Of a stretch of 43,958 nucleotides of DNA, positions 2,435-11,268 are shown one piece after another. Under the pieces are notes generated by a model. That model had not been told where the DNA came from and searched no databases. It saw nothing but the letters and a program-made list of their open reading frames with translations. The translations under genes were made by a program, and so were the position numbers. Within the stretch, counting starts at the first letter, position 1. Each line of letters opens with the position of its first letter. The stretch spans positions 1 to 43,958 of the forward strand of contig CACHCR010000008.1 of NCBI GenBank assembly GCA_902578385.1. Reading direction: 5' to 3'. This DNA comes from an uncultured Fidelibacterota bacterium. Lineage in GTDB: Bacteria > Fidelibacterota > Marinisomatia > Marinisomatales > Marinisomataceae.

Positions 2435-2450
2435 AATCAACTATTTTATT
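2425..2450. terminator. Weak AT-rich hairpin between convergent frr and nrdJ
   Basis: The arms ATAGTT (2427-2432) and AACTAT (2439-2444) pair around a six-base loop and are followed by TTTATT on the plus strand. The other arm is preceded by an A-rich stretch, so it could act in both directions. It overlaps the end of frr and the nrdJ stop. The stem is short and AT-rich, so function is uncertain. Confidence 0.3.
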
Positions 2451-4830
2451 CGCACTTAGACCAACCACAGTCTTTACAAACTAAGCATCCGCCTTCATTA
2501 ACGATTCCACTTCCATCACATTCACTGCAATGTTGGCCGTATTCTTTAGCTTGGCGAACTTTTGCTGAAGTTTCGTCTGCTATTTCAAATTGACTTTTTT
2601 TTTCCTGGGAAGGAGAATCACCATTAACAAATGTTTCAAGCGCTCTTCCAATTGCATCAGGAGTTGATAAAATGAGCTGACCATCTTCCCATGTTGGATT
2701 TGGTCCACTTATTCCTTTAAGTTGATTAATTATGCTATTAGGATCTACGCCAGAGCGTAATGCTAAGGAGATTAACCTACTTATTGCTTCTGTCTGTGCT
2801 GCAACCGTTCCACCTGCTTTTCCAATTGCGGTAAAGACTTCACAAAGACCATTTTCATCTTCGTTTACGGTTACGTAGAGTGTACCATCACCAGTTCTCA
2901 TTCGTCTTGTTCTTCCTTCTGTAATTGATGGACGGGTACGAGCGGTCTTCATTTCTGCATCTTCGGATGATTTCTCTTCATTTTCAGAAGATTTATCATC
3001 AGTAATTAGAATGCCTTCTCTGGAACCTTCTCTATAGACAGTAATACCTTTTAAATCTGCTTTGTATGCTGTCATATAAATATCTGCAACCGTATCAACA
3101 GTAGTTTCTTCAGCAAGGTTTACTGTAGATGATATAGAACTATCAATATATTTTTGAACAACACCTTGCATTTTAACTCGAAAGTAAGGGTCAACGTTAT
3201 GCGCTGTAACAACATACTGTGGTAGATTTTCATCTGTTCCAAACATTTCTTTTACTACAGGGTGATAAACAGTAAATGTGTCAAACTGTTTTCCTAGACT
3301 ATCATTCTTTTTAACTTTTCTTTTATAAGAAGTTGCAAAAATTGGTTCTACACCAGATGTAACTCTAGCTACAATTGCACCACTTCCTGTTGGAGCAACT
3401 GTTGTTAAAGTACAGTTTCTAATTCCATGATTCTTGATTTTTGTTTGTAATTTTTTTGGAAGATCTTGAACAAATAAACTTTGTGAGTATCCGTCCCAAT
3501 CAAAATTTGGAAATTGCCCCTTCTCTTTTGCTAACGCTGCACTGGTCTCATAAGAAGTATCTCTGTGTATTTCCATGATTTTACCGATTGTTTCTAATGC
3601 TTCATCAGAATCGTACTGTATTCCCATTTTAACAAGCATATCACCAAGACCTAAGATTCCTAATCCAACTCTTCTGTCGTTCATAGCATTTTGTTTTTGT
3701 TCTTCAAGCGCATGACGATCCAGATTATAATCAATTACGTTATCCAGGAATCTGGCTCCGATTGCTGTTGTTTCTTTAAAACCATCAAAATCAAAATTAC
3801 CATCCTGATCTACAAATCTTTCTAGATTCAATGCACCAAGGTTACAACATCCACCATCCGGCAATGGTTGTTCGGCACACGGGTTGGTTGATACTAACGG
3901 ACTGCAATATTCTGCGTTATGATATTTTGTCATTGTATCCCAGAAAAGTAGACCTGGCTCAGCACTTGCATGAGCATGTTCAATAATTTTCATCCAAAGA
4001 TCTTTTGCTTTTACAGTTGTGTAAACTTTTCCACCCCATTGTAAATCAAAATCAGAATCTGATTGAACTGCTTCCATAAATTCGTCAGTCAATAAAACTG
4101 AAATATTTGAGTATTTGACCATATCTATATCACCAGTCTTAATCTCAATAAATTTTTCGATGTCAGGATGATCAACTCGAAGTGTTTGCATATTAGCGCC
4201 TCTTCTACCATGTTGAGCTATTGTGTTGGTATTTTCACTAAAAAGATTCATAAAACCAACAGGGCCACAAGAGTTACCACCAGTTCCAAGGATTTCGTCT
4301 CCACCTGGTCTCAAGATTGATAAATCATGGCCACAACCACCGCCATATTTATATGTCATGGCCTCTTGGATAACACAGTCATATATTGATTTGATTGAAT
4401 CGGTTTTGATACCAACAACATAACAGTTATTTAGAGTAGTTGTGATATCTTCACGACCTGCACCATGCATAATTCTTCCGCCGGGTACAAATTTAAAATT
4501 TCTAAGCGCCTCAAAAAATGAAGCTTCCCATTTTTCTTGTAACTCAGGAGTTTTTTCAACACTTGCCAGTGCTTTGGCCTGACGCTTCCATAAATCCCAT
4601 GGATGTTTTTCTCCTGGTGCTAAATATTTCATTTCAAGAACACTACGACCAAGATCGTCTTCTTTATAATAATTATCTATTGTGTATTCTTCTGGACAAC
4701 TTTCTGAATCTTTATCCGAATCCATTGAATCTTTTACATTAAAACCTAAAATTTGGTTTTTAAGATCCGAATCTATTTTTGGATTTTTATCCGATTCTGT
4801 TGGAAAGTTTATTTCAATTGCTTCCGCCAT
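2446..4830 (-). CDS. nrdJ: Adenosylcobalamin-dependent (class II) ribonucleoside-diphosphate reductase
   Basis: A 794-residue enzyme that makes deoxyribonucleotides using a radical generated from adenosylcobalamin; it needs neither oxygen nor an R2 subunit. The first active-site cysteine is in NNCYVVG near residue 134. The radical motif NPCAEQPLPDGGCCNLGALN lies near residue 312. The C-terminus carries the zinc-ribbon-like cysteine pairs CSECDGSG, CLVCKDC and a final CE, typical of NrdJ tails that pass electrons from thioredoxin. No ATP-cone domain is recognisable, and the first 80 residues are acidic and family-variable. The gene stands alone on this strand behind an unusual hairpin-rich leader. 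It implies a need for B12, made or imported. No other ribonucleotide reductase is visible in the window. Confidence 0.96.
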   Translation of the reverse strand: MAEAIEINFPTESDKNPKIDSDLKNQILGFNVKDSMDSDKDSESCPEEYTIDNYYKEDDLGRSVLEMKYLAPGEKHPWDLWKRQAKALASVEKTPELQEKWEASFFEALRNFKFVPGGRIMHGAGREDITTTLNNCYVVGIKTDSIKSIYDCVIQEAMTYKYGGGCGHDLSILRPGGDEILGTGGNSCGPVGFMNLFSENTNTIAQHGRRGANMQTLRVDHPDIEKFIEIKTGDIDMVKYSNISVLLTDEFMEAVQSDSDFDLQWGGKVYTTVKAKDLWMKIIEHAHASAEPGLLFWDTMTKYHNAEYCSPLVSTNPCAEQPLPDGGCCNLGALNLERFVDQDGNFDFDGFKETTAIGARFLDNVIDYNLDRHALEEQKQNAMNDRRVGLGILGLGDMLVKMGIQYDSDEALETIGKIMEIHRDTSYETSAALAKEKGQFPNFDWDGYSQSLFVQDLPKKLQTKIKNHGIRNCTLTTVAPTGSGAIVARVTSGVEPIFATSYKRKVKKNDSLGKQFDTFTVYHPVVKEMFGTDENLPQYVVTAHNVDPYFRVKMQGVVQKYIDSSISSTVNLAEETTVDTVADIYMTAYKADLKGITVYREGSREGILITDDKSSENEEKSSEDAEMKTARTRPSITEGRTRRMRTGDGTLYVTVNEDENGLCEVFTAIGKAGGTVAAQTEAISRLISLALRSGVDPNSIINQLKGISGPNPTWEDGQLILSTPDAIGRALETFVNGDSPSQEKKSQFEIADETSAKVRQAKEYGQHCSECDGSGIVNEGGCLVCKDCGWSKCE

Positions 4831-4838
4831 AATTCTTT

Positions 4839-4957
4839 ATTCTCTAACCCTTGTTACGTTAATATAGTACGTGTCTCAAGACACAATTCTCTAAAAGAGA
4901 TTATTATTTGTTTTGCAAATACGTAGCTTTCGAAAAGCTAATTGGCTGGCCTTCCAA
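4839..4957 (-). promoter_or_regulatory. Candidate structured mRNA leader of nrdJ
   Basis: The 290 bases between the divergent nrdJ and indolepyruvate oxidoreductase genes hold an array of short perfect inverted repeats on the nrdJ side. These are GTGTCT/AGACAC (4871-4884), TCTCT/AGAGA (4888-4892 and 4896-4900), ATTTG/CAAAT (4906-4910 and 4916-4920), TAGCTTT/AAAGCTA (4924-4930 and 4934-4940) and TTGG/CCAA (4942-4945 and 4954-4957). Two strands are duplicated closer to the start codon. ATTCTCTAA occurs at 4839-4847 and 4886-4894; TACGT occurs at 4855-4859 and 4868-4872, both complementary to ACGTA at 4921-4925. This allows mutually exclusive pairings, as in riboswitches. No B12-box-like GCCACT sequence is present, so it is not a standard cobalamin riboswitch. 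The remaining 4961-5120 is AT-rich with T tracts and shows nothing else. Confidence 0.5.
4871..4884. promoter_or_regulatory. Palindrome 40 nt upstream of nrdJ, shared with the TonB receptor gene
   Basis: GTGTCTCAAGACAC is a 6+6 bp inverted repeat with a two-base centre. It differs at one position from GTGTCTCTAGACAC at 15377-15390. Each copy ends exactly 40 bases before the start codon of a minus-strand gene. It could be an operator for a dimeric regulator or a leader hairpin. There is no following T run, so it is not an intrinsic terminator. Confidence 0.5.
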
Positions 4958-5120
4958 CTTATTTATTTTTTTTTATTTTAGTCAAGTCTAAAAACGTAAA
5001 ATCTAATATTTTTTTAAAAAATGATATTAAAAAATAAAAATATAAGTTTAATAGTCACATAATTTTGCCTACTTGTTTTGCATTTATTTCTGTATTAATA
5101 TTTGGAGCAACTATGCATAT

Positions 5121-8712: not shown

Positions 8713-11268
8713 ATGTTTAAAAAATTTTTAATATTTTTAGGAATCTTAGGTTTTACTTATGCTCAACATAACCATAATCACGCTATGGATGAAAATGGTT
8801 ATATCAGATGCTTAACAGATGAGCTTGAACAAGAATTGCAACTTATAAACCCTGAGTTTATAGCAGAAAGAGATGCGCAATTAGAAAAAGCCAAACAACT
8901 TTTAAGAGATAATCCTCAATGGAGGACTGATAGTAGTACTCAAACTACAATTTATATTCCTGTTGTTTTTCATGTTCTTTATTTCAATTCTGGAGACAAT
9001 ACTTCAGCTTTTCAAATTGGCGCAAATTTTGATCAAATTAATTTAGATTTTCAAAATCTTAATCCTGATGGTGATGAAATTCCATCAGCCCCAAATCCAA
9101 GTGATGCACCTTATGACCCAGGTATTGATTACAGCCATCAGGCTGTAAGAGGAACTCATAATGTTGTATTTGTTGGAGCAGCAGGAGAAACTGCTGGAAG
9201 TCAATTAATTGAGGGTACTACAATATTAAGATATCAAATCAATTCATCCAGTATAAGTGGTGTTAGTGATGCAAGTAGCACTGCTAGTAGTATTACCCCT
9301 GACCAGAGCTCGTGGCCGGGAGGATCAGGAGGATATAAGAATGGTTATTTAAATATTTATATTGCACCGTTAACTGGTGGATTATTAGGTCAAGCTTATC
9401 TAGGATTCCCAGAATCAGTTGTATTAAATGATAGTGTTGGTTCAGTAGAAAATCCAGGATCGACTTCAGGCTATAATCGTGGACGAACTTTAACTCATGA
9501 GTTAGGTCATAATTTTACTTTTAATCATGTTTTTAACTCCAGTAATTGTGGTGATTTTCTTTGGAATGACATTCCTGCTCAATATGTTAATAATCGAGGA
9601 GCAAATATTTATGAATGGCCTGCGGGAAGTGGAAATTTTTGGGGTAGAGATGGTGAAAATAGTTGTATTTCATCCACTGGTAAAGGTGATCAGTTCATGA
9701 ACTATATGGATTATGTTTACGACGATCAAATGAGAATGTTTTCAGAAGAACAAGCTCTTGATGGGTACGCATGGGCTCAATCGAGAACTTGGGCTCAGGT
9801 TGTAAGTGGTGTTAATACTCAAATTTCATCAAGTGTATCTTATGCAACATCAGATGATGGTTTTACAGTTGATGTTACTTTTGGTGAAGAGGTTTCAGGT
9901 TTTACACAGGATGATTTAGTTTTGACTAATGCAACAGTAACAGCTTTTAATGATGCTGATGGAACAAATTTTAGTTTTGATGTAGAAGCTATAGTTGACG
10001 GTGATGTTAAAGTATCGATTGCAGCAAATAGTTGTGTTGGGGTTGATTCTGGAAATAATAATTTTGAATCAAATGAGATTGTAGTAATAGTAGATAGAGC
10101 TGTACCAATTGCTGGATCTCTATCAATTGATAACATTCAGGATTCACAGTATATAACTAAGGCTCCATCATTAAATCTTTCATTAAATGACTTTACGGAT
10201 GCTACTAGTGGAGTTGGATTATACTACGTTTCAGTGGGACTTTCTCCTCAAGGACAAGAAGTTTTACCGTTTACAGCATTTTCAGATTCTGGAATTAATT
10301 TAAATAATTTAGGTTTACTTGATTATCAGCAATATTATGTAAATGTTTATGCTCAAGACTTAGTTGGTTTAAATTCCTCAACAGTTAGTTCATCATTCTA
10401 TTACTTTGGAACCTTGCTTGGTGATTCTAATAACGATTGGGTAATAGACTTTGAAGACTACGCAAGTTTCATTTCTAATTATCCTGGAGTAGATATTGCA
10501 CCTGTAACTGGAAGTGCACCTTATTTCTTCCCTAATTTTGATGGAATTTCTGATGCAAATGATTTAGCAATGTTTGAATCAATGTGGAATTGGTCAATTG
10601 CTGAAAATGGTAGAACAGTTCCAAATTATACATTGCAGGGTGAAGCTCCATATTTAAGAATACTTAACGGACAATTGATTGTTAGATTCCCTCTAGCTGC
10701 ATCAACGGCCCAGTTTTATTTTGAATATGATACAGAGAAATATTTAATTGATTATTCTCCAAGCAATCTAAACAATAATGTTGTCTTAAGTGCTAATAGT
10801 CAGGAAGATGGAGTTATTCAAGTTGAAGCTGCTGACTATCGAACTGATAGGAACAGTCCTCTTGAAATGGCCTTTAGTTTTCAAAATCTTACTGACACTT
10901 ATGAGTTTATGAGAGTTAGTTATTCTTCATATAGTAAGTCAAATCTTCTTATATCTGAAGGATATAACTTAATTCAAACTGCTCCATCAACATATCGATT
11001 GTCTCAAAGTTATCCTAATCCATTTACGGAAGGTGGAACAACAATTGAATTTGATATGCCTGTCACAGAGCAAATAACCATGGTTATACTTGATATAAGA
11101 GGTAGAGTAGTTAGAACATTGATTAATAATGAGCAACGATTTGGTTATCAATCTGTAGTTTGGGATGCTAAAAATGATGATGGCGATAAAGTTAGTAGTG
11201 GTGTATACTTTTACCAAATACGATCAACAAACTTTAATGCTGTTGGCAAACTTGTATTTGTTAAGTAG
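8713..11268 (+). CDS. Secreted M43-like zinc metalloprotease with T9SS sorting domain
   Basis: An 851-residue exported protein. A signal peptide (FKKFLIFLGILGFTYAQ) is followed by a histidine-rich stretch. The peptidase domain carries HELGHNFTFNH at residues 262-272 and a Met-turn FMNYMDY near 329, the pappalysin-type (M43) arrangement. The usual glycine in HExxHxxGxxH is a threonine here. Next come an Ig-like domain (about 375-470), a segment around 571-640 with GDSNNDWVIDFEDY that resembles a calcium-binding dockerin-like loop, and a final 85 residues with SQSYPNPF, a conserved VWD and GVYFYQI, ending in KLVFVK. That last part is the type A sorting domain of type IX secretion. The protein is probably released or anchored at the cell surface to degrade extracellular protein. 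GGA lies nine bases before the ATG. Confidence 0.9.
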   Translation: MFKKFLIFLGILGFTYAQHNHNHAMDENGYIRCLTDELEQELQLINPEFIAERDAQLEKAKQLLRDNPQWRTDSSTQTTIYIPVVFHVLYFNSGDNTSAFQIGANFDQINLDFQNLNPDGDEIPSAPNPSDAPYDPGIDYSHQAVRGTHNVVFVGAAGETAGSQLIEGTTILRYQINSSSISGVSDASSTASSITPDQSSWPGGSGGYKNGYLNIYIAPLTGGLLGQAYLGFPESVVLNDSVGSVENPGSTSGYNRGRTLTHELGHNFTFNHVFNSSNCGDFLWNDIPAQYVNNRGANIYEWPAGSGNFWGRDGENSCISSTGKGDQFMNYMDYVYDDQMRMFSEEQALDGYAWAQSRTWAQVVSGVNTQISSSVSYATSDDGFTVDVTFGEEVSGFTQDDLVLTNATVTAFNDADGTNFSFDVEAIVDGDVKVSIAANSCVGVDSGNNNFESNEIVVIVDRAVPIAGSLSIDNIQDSQYITKAPSLNLSLNDFTDATSGVGLYYVSVGLSPQGQEVLPFTAFSDSGINLNNLGLLDYQQYYVNVYAQDLVGLNSSTVSSSFYYFGTLLGDSNNDWVIDFEDYASFISNYPGVDIAPVTGSAPYFFPNFDGISDANDLAMFESMWNWSIAENGRTVPNYTLQGEAPYLRILNGQLIVRFPLAASTAQFYFEYDTEKYLIDYSPSNLNNNVVLSANSQEDGVIQVEAADYRTDRNSPLEMAFSFQNLTDTYEFMRVSYSSYSKSNLLISEGYNLIQTAPSTYRLSQSYPNPFTEGGTTIEFDMPVTEQITMVILDIRGRVVRTLINNEQRFGYQSVVWDAKNDDGDKVSSGVYFYQIRSTNFNAVGKLVFVK

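Follow-up and report, generated by a model that had tools for sequence, protein, structure and literature searches.

A probable trans-encoded antisense RNA beside ssrA with co-varying complementarity to the nrdJ leader of marine Marinimicrobia

Introduction

Ribonucleotide reductase sets the supply of DNA precursors, and its control is usually ascribed to NrdR, allostery, and cobalamin riboswitches. In a small, A/T-rich genome of Marinimicrobia (SAR406; 946 kb in 14 contigs), whose relatives are mostly labeled Candidatus Marinimicrobia/Neomarinimicrobiota in public records, the leader of nrdJ raises the question of what its repeated and mutually complementary words pair with. A first-pass annotation of the stretch of DNA analyzed here (43,958 nucleotides in full; the window) had read this leader as a two-state riboregulator, in which duplicated strands have an alternative pairing partner within the leader itself. 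By comparison of the leader within the genus and the order, we found that a second partner for the leader blocks does exist, not in cis but in trans, in a predicted small RNA (sRNA) encoded beside ssrA. From the comparative evidence given below, the nrdJ leader is very likely the target of this trans-encoded antisense sRNA, which would form a dedicated family.

Results

The nrdJ leader and its conserved hairpins

The gene downstream of the leader was confirmed as nrdJ by a profile match above the cut-off (Table 1), and its start codon is the same in the full-length orthologues of the genus and order. The words on which the earlier reading was built also lie where it had placed them, that is, ATTCTCTAA at 4839-4847 and again at 4886-4894, AGAGA at 4896-4900, TACGT at 4855-4859 and 4868-4872, and ACGTA at 4921-4925. 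A promoter was assigned to nrdJ as a prediction from conservation and inspection. The position of its -10 region is kept in most genus and order leaders, with TATATTTG-like boxes at this position in the order relatives. The consensus scans, which are of the E. coli type, detected neither a promoter nor a short-loop terminator at the nrdJ leader or at the sRNA gene, and the TTGACT box gave no match in the sigma-70 consensus scan. In order relatives (e.g., L063 and L069), a conserved word CCACATACC abuts the 5' side of the AAGGA ribosome-binding site across many leaders, and no explanation was found for it.

Table 1 Coordinates of nrdJ and of the observed and predicted leader features in the window
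Feature	Position	Strand	Basis
nrdJ coding sequence, 794 aa, class II adenosylcobalamin-dependent ribonucleotide reductase	2446..4830	-	NCBIfam TIGR02504 NrdJ_Z, E 8e-164, above cut-off
Putative -35 box TTGACT, nrdJ promoter	4980..4985	-	predicted from a block conserved in the genus alignment
Putative -10 region ATAAGTT, 17 nt from the -35 box	4956..4962	-	predicted from a position conserved 5-7 nt before GCCARCC
Site A, GCCAGCC, predicted mRNA 5' end	4944..4950	-	GCCARCC conserved in genus and order; pairs with sRNA loop GGUUGGC
P1 hairpin UAGCUUUUCGAAAGCUA; loop side UUUUCGA at 4930-4936	4924..4940	-	genus covariation; duplex with sRNA
Site B core GUAUUUGC, complementary to GCAAAUAC	4915..4922	-	compensatory change in G020/G021; order-level counts
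AAUAAUCU block, complementary to sRNA AGAUUAUU (genus only)	4898..4905	-	duplex and comparison
P2 hairpin UCUCU-UUU-AGAGA	4888..4900	-	genus covariation
P3 hairpin GUGUC-UUGA-GACAC; two pairs changed on both sides	4871..4884	-	genus covariation
Probable ribosome-binding site AAGGG, ~17 nt before the start codon	4848..4852	-	predicted from a conserved G-rich run in genus leaders

When folded as a single sequence, the window leader (-29.7 kcal/mol, z -1.65) was marginally above chance, 11 of 200 shuffled sequences being equally good. For the comparison, nrdJ leaders were taken from the genus and order, and the hairpins were tested on 11 close relatives. As the first-pass annotation had proposed to check, covariation of the stems in related leaders was found for P1, P2, and P3: 98.3% of the cells are paired, three pairs are changed on both sides, and the covariation score was attained by 0 of 500 shuffles. 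In the deeper genus members, the P1 stem is preserved through several sequence changes, and AGUCU/AGACU and AGCCU/AGGCU replace UCUCU/AGAGA in P2. The UAUUUG-CAAAACAAAUA hairpin needs bases that few genomes other than the window genome possess. The first-pass annotation was right in that the leader has conserved hairpins and looks regulatory. The covariation indicates that part of the leader secondary structure is real. Three records titled Legionellales, Thaumarchaeota, and Polaribacter (L039, L100, and L103, respectively) carry a Marinimicrobia-type nrdJ and leader, probably through mislabelling or contamination of the MAGs.

Conservation within the leader is strongest in single-stranded blocks at the predicted start of the mRNA, namely GCCARCC, UUUUCGA, GUAUUUGC, and AAUAAUCU. 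In the genus, the -10-like box is followed after ~5-7 nt by GCCARCC, P1 with UUUUCGA, GUAUUUGC, and AAUAAUCU, in this order. Leaders from other families in the order open with GCCAACC, and their counterpart of site B is UUUCAYUUGYCARCC, at nt 24-38 (alignment A3). A divergent branch of the genus (L021/L046 and L111, from G009 and G003) keeps a P1-like hairpin, UAUGCAAAUU/AAUUUGUGUA, without GCCARCC.

In the two-state model of the first-pass annotation, the leader by itself would either form local hairpins or pair over a longer range so as to conceal the start region. The conservation of P1-P3 with covariation is in line with this model, as are a few compensatory cells for the long-range UACGU/ACGUA pairing; however, the mutually exclusive pairings in cis are not conserved in the relatives. 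The swap of AGAGA with the start-codon-proximal TTAGAGAAT is paired in 71.7% of cells as compared with 73.0% after shuffling, and on most measures the TACGT/ACGTA alternatives, which overlap P1, stand out little from shuffles. Because the model moreover leaves unexplained the co-varying complementary RNA beside ssrA described below, we consider a riboregulator acting in cis to be improbable.

A putative small RNA gene beside ssrA

When R1, a model of the order motif built from sequence only, was searched over 101 genomes, all the matches with E < 1e-3 proved to be either the nrdJ leader or, in several genomes, the antisense strand of a putative sRNA next to ssrA, and this ssrA-side element was also found in the window's own genus. 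R1 gave no significant match to the genus leaders, and the homology of the target between genus and order is therefore based on its position, on GCCARCC, and on the sRNA that both have. In the window genome, the unannotated sRNA gene of ~80 nt (G000:C1 ~128301-128381, + strand) is located just upstream of ssrA, with the tmRNA start at 128423; nrdJ is on G000:C8, and the two are thus separate loci, as is the case for trans-encoded RNAs. The element matched no Rfam family, and the Rfam matches there were the flanking tmRNA and tRNA-Lys alone.

Read on the ssrA strand, the element resembles a short RNA gene, in which a promoter-like block is followed by a 5' region and by a GC stem whose loop contains GGUUGGC. 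A U-rich tail comes next, separated from the tmRNA by some tens of bases or more. The promoter-like block is conserved, as TTGACC-N17-TTAGTTTG in the genus and as TTGC...TATATT or TATTTTTG in family f9, and the terminator-like stem in f9 (alignment A6) is 100% paired with two pairs changed on both sides. On the basis of this conservation and inspection, they are designated the putative promoter and terminator. An alternative reading, on the strand opposite to ssrA, would make the element a sense copy of the motif in the leader; it was dropped, since the G.U/A.C asymmetry (see below), the U-tail, and the promoter-like position favor the ssrA strand.

A covariance model of the f9 RNA (R2) gave matches at E <= 0.05 in 70 of the 101 genomes, in families f1, f6, f7, and f9-f15; a lone weak match in f8 was left out as evidence. 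As expected under the pairing hypothesis, a few of the weak R2 matches lay opposite the nrdJ leader, on its antisense strand. Most of the genus sRNAs matched the order-level model weakly (E about 1e-3). Alignment A5, in which the genus and f9 stems are misregistered, was excluded from model building. The sRNA gene is directly followed by ssrA in the genus and in f6, f7, f9, and f12-f14, and in these latter six families the two share a strand. The sRNA would not be of the Hfq-dependent class, as Hfq (PF17209) was found in none of 41 relatives by a search that was positive in 5 of 14 control genomes.

Complementarity of the sRNA to the nrdJ leader

The sRNA matches the leader in four blocks arranged in antiparallel order: GGUUGGC with GCCARCC, UCGAAAA with UUUUCGA on the loop side of P1, GCAAAUAC with GUAUUUGC, and AGAUUAUU with AAUAAUCU. 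GGUUGGC, the loop of the terminator-like hairpin, matches the first 7 nt of the predicted nrdJ mRNA, and GCAAAUAC is also placed in a hairpin loop. Duplexes of the sRNA with the first 70 nt of its own leader were calculated at -46 to -56 kcal/mol (z -4.6 to -8.3), a strength reached by 0 of 200 shuffles in 28 of 28 genomes. Comparable results were obtained with site B alone, for which 0 of 100 shuffles were as strong in 45 of 54 genomes of nine families (median z -5.1). Moreover, the f9 leader gave duplex energies of about -44 to -52 with its own sRNA versus mostly -18 to -28 with the genus sRNA, and the genus leader gave about -44 to -51 with its own versus -29 to -37 with the f9 sRNA. Own-clade pairs were generally stronger than cross-clade pairs, with exceptions among close clades.

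Energy by itself, however, is not specific in an A/T-rich genome. Against a background of 0.44 Mb of the window genome, the sRNA of this genome, whose gene lies outside the window, ranked the nrdJ leader first among 407 upstream regions but just eighth among 8838 arbitrary 130-nt tiles; thus, energy alone is not proof, and the case rests on the co-variation described below. The full duplex in the genus would require opening of P1 and of the stable terminator, and the gain of co-folding over the separate folds was 6.4 kcal/mol for the window pair versus 18-20 kcal/mol in four other genomes tried. No pairing between sRNA and leader was found in family f2, and f8 was not judged, no ssrA having been found there.

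The motif search of 101 genomes revealed no other conserved target with the bipartite site. This result bears on the converse reading, that the nrdJ leader or a fragment derived from it serves as a sponge titrating the sRNA away from other targets. Such a role would be compatible with the pairing, which is symmetrical and would suit either sign of regulation; with no other such target found, and hence no known regulon to protect, it is nevertheless hardly probable.

Co-variation of the sRNA and the leader

For the quantitative comparison, site B was defined as 14 bp at nt 25-38 of the leader, located by the target-only motif in f10, f13, and f15, and the count omitted six genomes with shifted or inserted sites, which pair with gaps, and one row identical to another. 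Among the 22 genomes of eight families thus included, 93.5% of the cells are paired, as compared with 84.1% after shuffling and 25-43% in slid registers. Changes on both sides were observed at 8 of the 14 pairs and amounted to 32 cells versus 9.2 in the shuffled sets (attained by 0 of 500). The compensatory pair GUAUUUGU / ACAAAUAC is seen at site B in G020 and G021, and the target UUUUUCAUCC is faced by the sRNA GGAUGAAAAA in G083 and the target CAUUUGUUAUUC by the sRNA GAAUAACAAAUG in G074. In families f3 and f5, most of the target sequence is altered, and complementarity to the RNA upstream of ssrA is nevertheless retained (z about -4, two N bases in the f5 record being set to A for the energy), with matches at 17 of 18 and 19 of 21 positions, respectively, by inspection. 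In G003, both the leader site and the sRNA are absent, i.e., they are co-lost. By these comparisons, the complementarity is conserved with compensatory changes, in the manner of a trans-encoded sRNA and its target, and the sRNA and the leader appear to have changed in step across the whole order of these marine bacteria.

The non-Watson-Crick cells are biased as well. At site B, 25 cells are G.U and 7 are A.C (19:6 at the family level, p 0.015); the corresponding numbers are 19 and 0 at site A and 13 and 0 in the terminator stem when the ssrA strand is read. An excess of G.U over A.C is as expected for RNA pairing. This bias sets pairing of RNAs apart from a shared DNA operator, that is, sites of one transcription factor that drift together at both loci and look complementary through their opposite orientation. 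The target blocks lie at the predicted transcription start, and the spacing of 31 nt from GCCAACC to GYCARCC is fixed in many order members, as would suit an operator. However, an operator would give no preference for G.U over A.C, which is seen at both sites; P1, in the middle, shows the covariation of an RNA hairpin within the genus; site A in the sRNA is the loop of a stem with compensatory or G.U changes on one strand; and the match persists through the near-complete change of the site in f3 and f5. We thus regard an operator as very improbable.

The first-pass annotation had also noted that no B12 box is visible, and no match to a cobalamin riboswitch was obtained with the Rfam covariance models, which it had proposed to run and which matched no family, cobalamin and RF03034 included, in the window or in 20 related loci. 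The nrdJ RNA motif (RF03034), which comes from a 2017 paper, was found in 0 of 41 genomes (the window genome and 40 relatives) at E <= 1 in a search whose control was weak, one control genome matching below the cut-off. Rfam scans at gathering and relaxed thresholds returned only RT-17 and a CRISPR-repeat model, both far below the cut-off and judged to be chance matches in A/T-rich sequence. A riboswitch of a new class sensing adenosylcobalamin or a deoxynucleotide is extremely improbable: although the leader precedes a B12-dependent enzyme and its unpaired blocks are conserved, no Rfam family matches, the trans partner already accounts for the conserved blocks, and the blocks vary in sequence from family to family with a freedom not expected of a ligand pocket.

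Proposed mechanism

In the proposed antisense mechanism, the terminator loop GGUUGGC of the sRNA would capture the 5' terminus of the nrdJ mRNA (the first seven nucleotides, GCCARCC), and the 5' region of the sRNA would pair with a second site beyond P1, consisting of GUAUUUGC and its neighbors in the genus and of UUUCAYUUGYCARCC in the wider order, so that the sRNA would grip the leader on either side of P1. In the genus, the sRNA loop AGCAAA within UUGUA-AGCAAA-UACAA faces GUAUUUGC and could initiate the pairing. Because the paired site occupies the very start of the mRNA, far from the probable ribosome-binding site AAGGG that lies tens of nucleotides further downstream, an action through mRNA lifetime or leader folding is likelier than masking of the start codon. 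Between the two possible signs, we lean slightly toward decay triggered by the duplex, i.e., repression, for which the chances seem a little better than even, and give protection of the 5' end a somewhat smaller share. Transcription of the sRNA, its start and end points, the pairing in vivo, and the sign and trigger of regulation are what we infer here from genome comparison. Presumably, and with fair confidence, the sRNA represents a dedicated family that is conserved over the depth of the order, occurs in Hfq-less marine bacteria beside the tmRNA gene, and uses a bipartite grip to control the class II ribonucleotide reductase.

Discussion

The antisense RNAs CopA/CopT and RNAI/RNAII nucleate pairing at loops, show extended complementarity, do not need Hfq, and are encoded in cis on the strand opposite to the target. 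The proposed nrdJ sRNA would share with them the capacity of hairpin loops to nucleate pairing with a leader RNA and the dispensability of Hfq, and differs in being encoded far from its target and in being complementary to it only in part. As a functional analogue, FasX of Streptococcus pyogenes, which is reported to lengthen the half-life of ska mRNA (PMC7509114, PMC3675131), is likewise a trans-encoded sRNA that pairs with the 5' end of one mRNA; it has no sequence relation to the present RNA, belongs to another phylum, and has another target, and the bipartite grip flanking a hairpin and using a terminator loop is that of the nrdJ sRNA.

Among links of sRNA or Hfq to ribonucleotide reductase, HrrF of nontypeable Haemophilus influenzae is reported to raise nrdB mRNA and to have Hfq-independent stability (PMC4144887). 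It is a small RNA that affects a ribonucleotide reductase gene, as proposed for the nrdJ sRNA; however, it is regulated by Fur and has several targets, the enzyme is of class Ia, no pairing site on nrdB is given in the part considered, and the two RNAs are not homologous. In S. meliloti, NrdJ falls in an hfq mutant (PMC3484140). Neither of these two links, HrrF and the S. meliloti hfq effect, resembles the nrdJ sRNA. The RF03034 motif, reported upstream of nrdJ in Streptomyces (PMC8079986), shares this location with the leader examined here, and differs in being a cis motif of 80 positions. A search of one literature library found no paper joining Marinimicrobia with small RNA and sRNA. The RNA would thus be a new sRNA family of the trans-encoded antisense type, with an unusual bipartite grip that uses its terminator loop.

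If this is true, an RNA-only layer of control acts on the supply of DNA precursors in an abundant uncultured phylum of the ocean. It would also be a case in which genomes suffice to establish an sRNA and its target across great divergence, yielding exact predictions that are testable in a reporter system.

Upstream region and another gene of the window

In order relatives (L052, L063, L069, L053, and others), pairs of DnaA-box-like words, TGTGGATAA...TGTGGATAA, occur ~150-260 nt upstream of nrdJ, and in many relatives with larger genomes they are found together with a TTTCTCGACGAG-like palindrome ahead of the nrdJ promoter. These pairs could reflect replication-linked control of nrdJ; the words are not visible in the window genus. 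A stretch of 39 nt at G000:C5:62876-62914 shares 82% identity with the A/T-rich sequence ahead of the nrdJ promoter, probably by chance. Elsewhere in the window, positions 8713-11268 (+ strand) encode a large protein whose C-terminus carries a T9SS type A sorting domain, which hints at type IX secretion in this streamlined genome.
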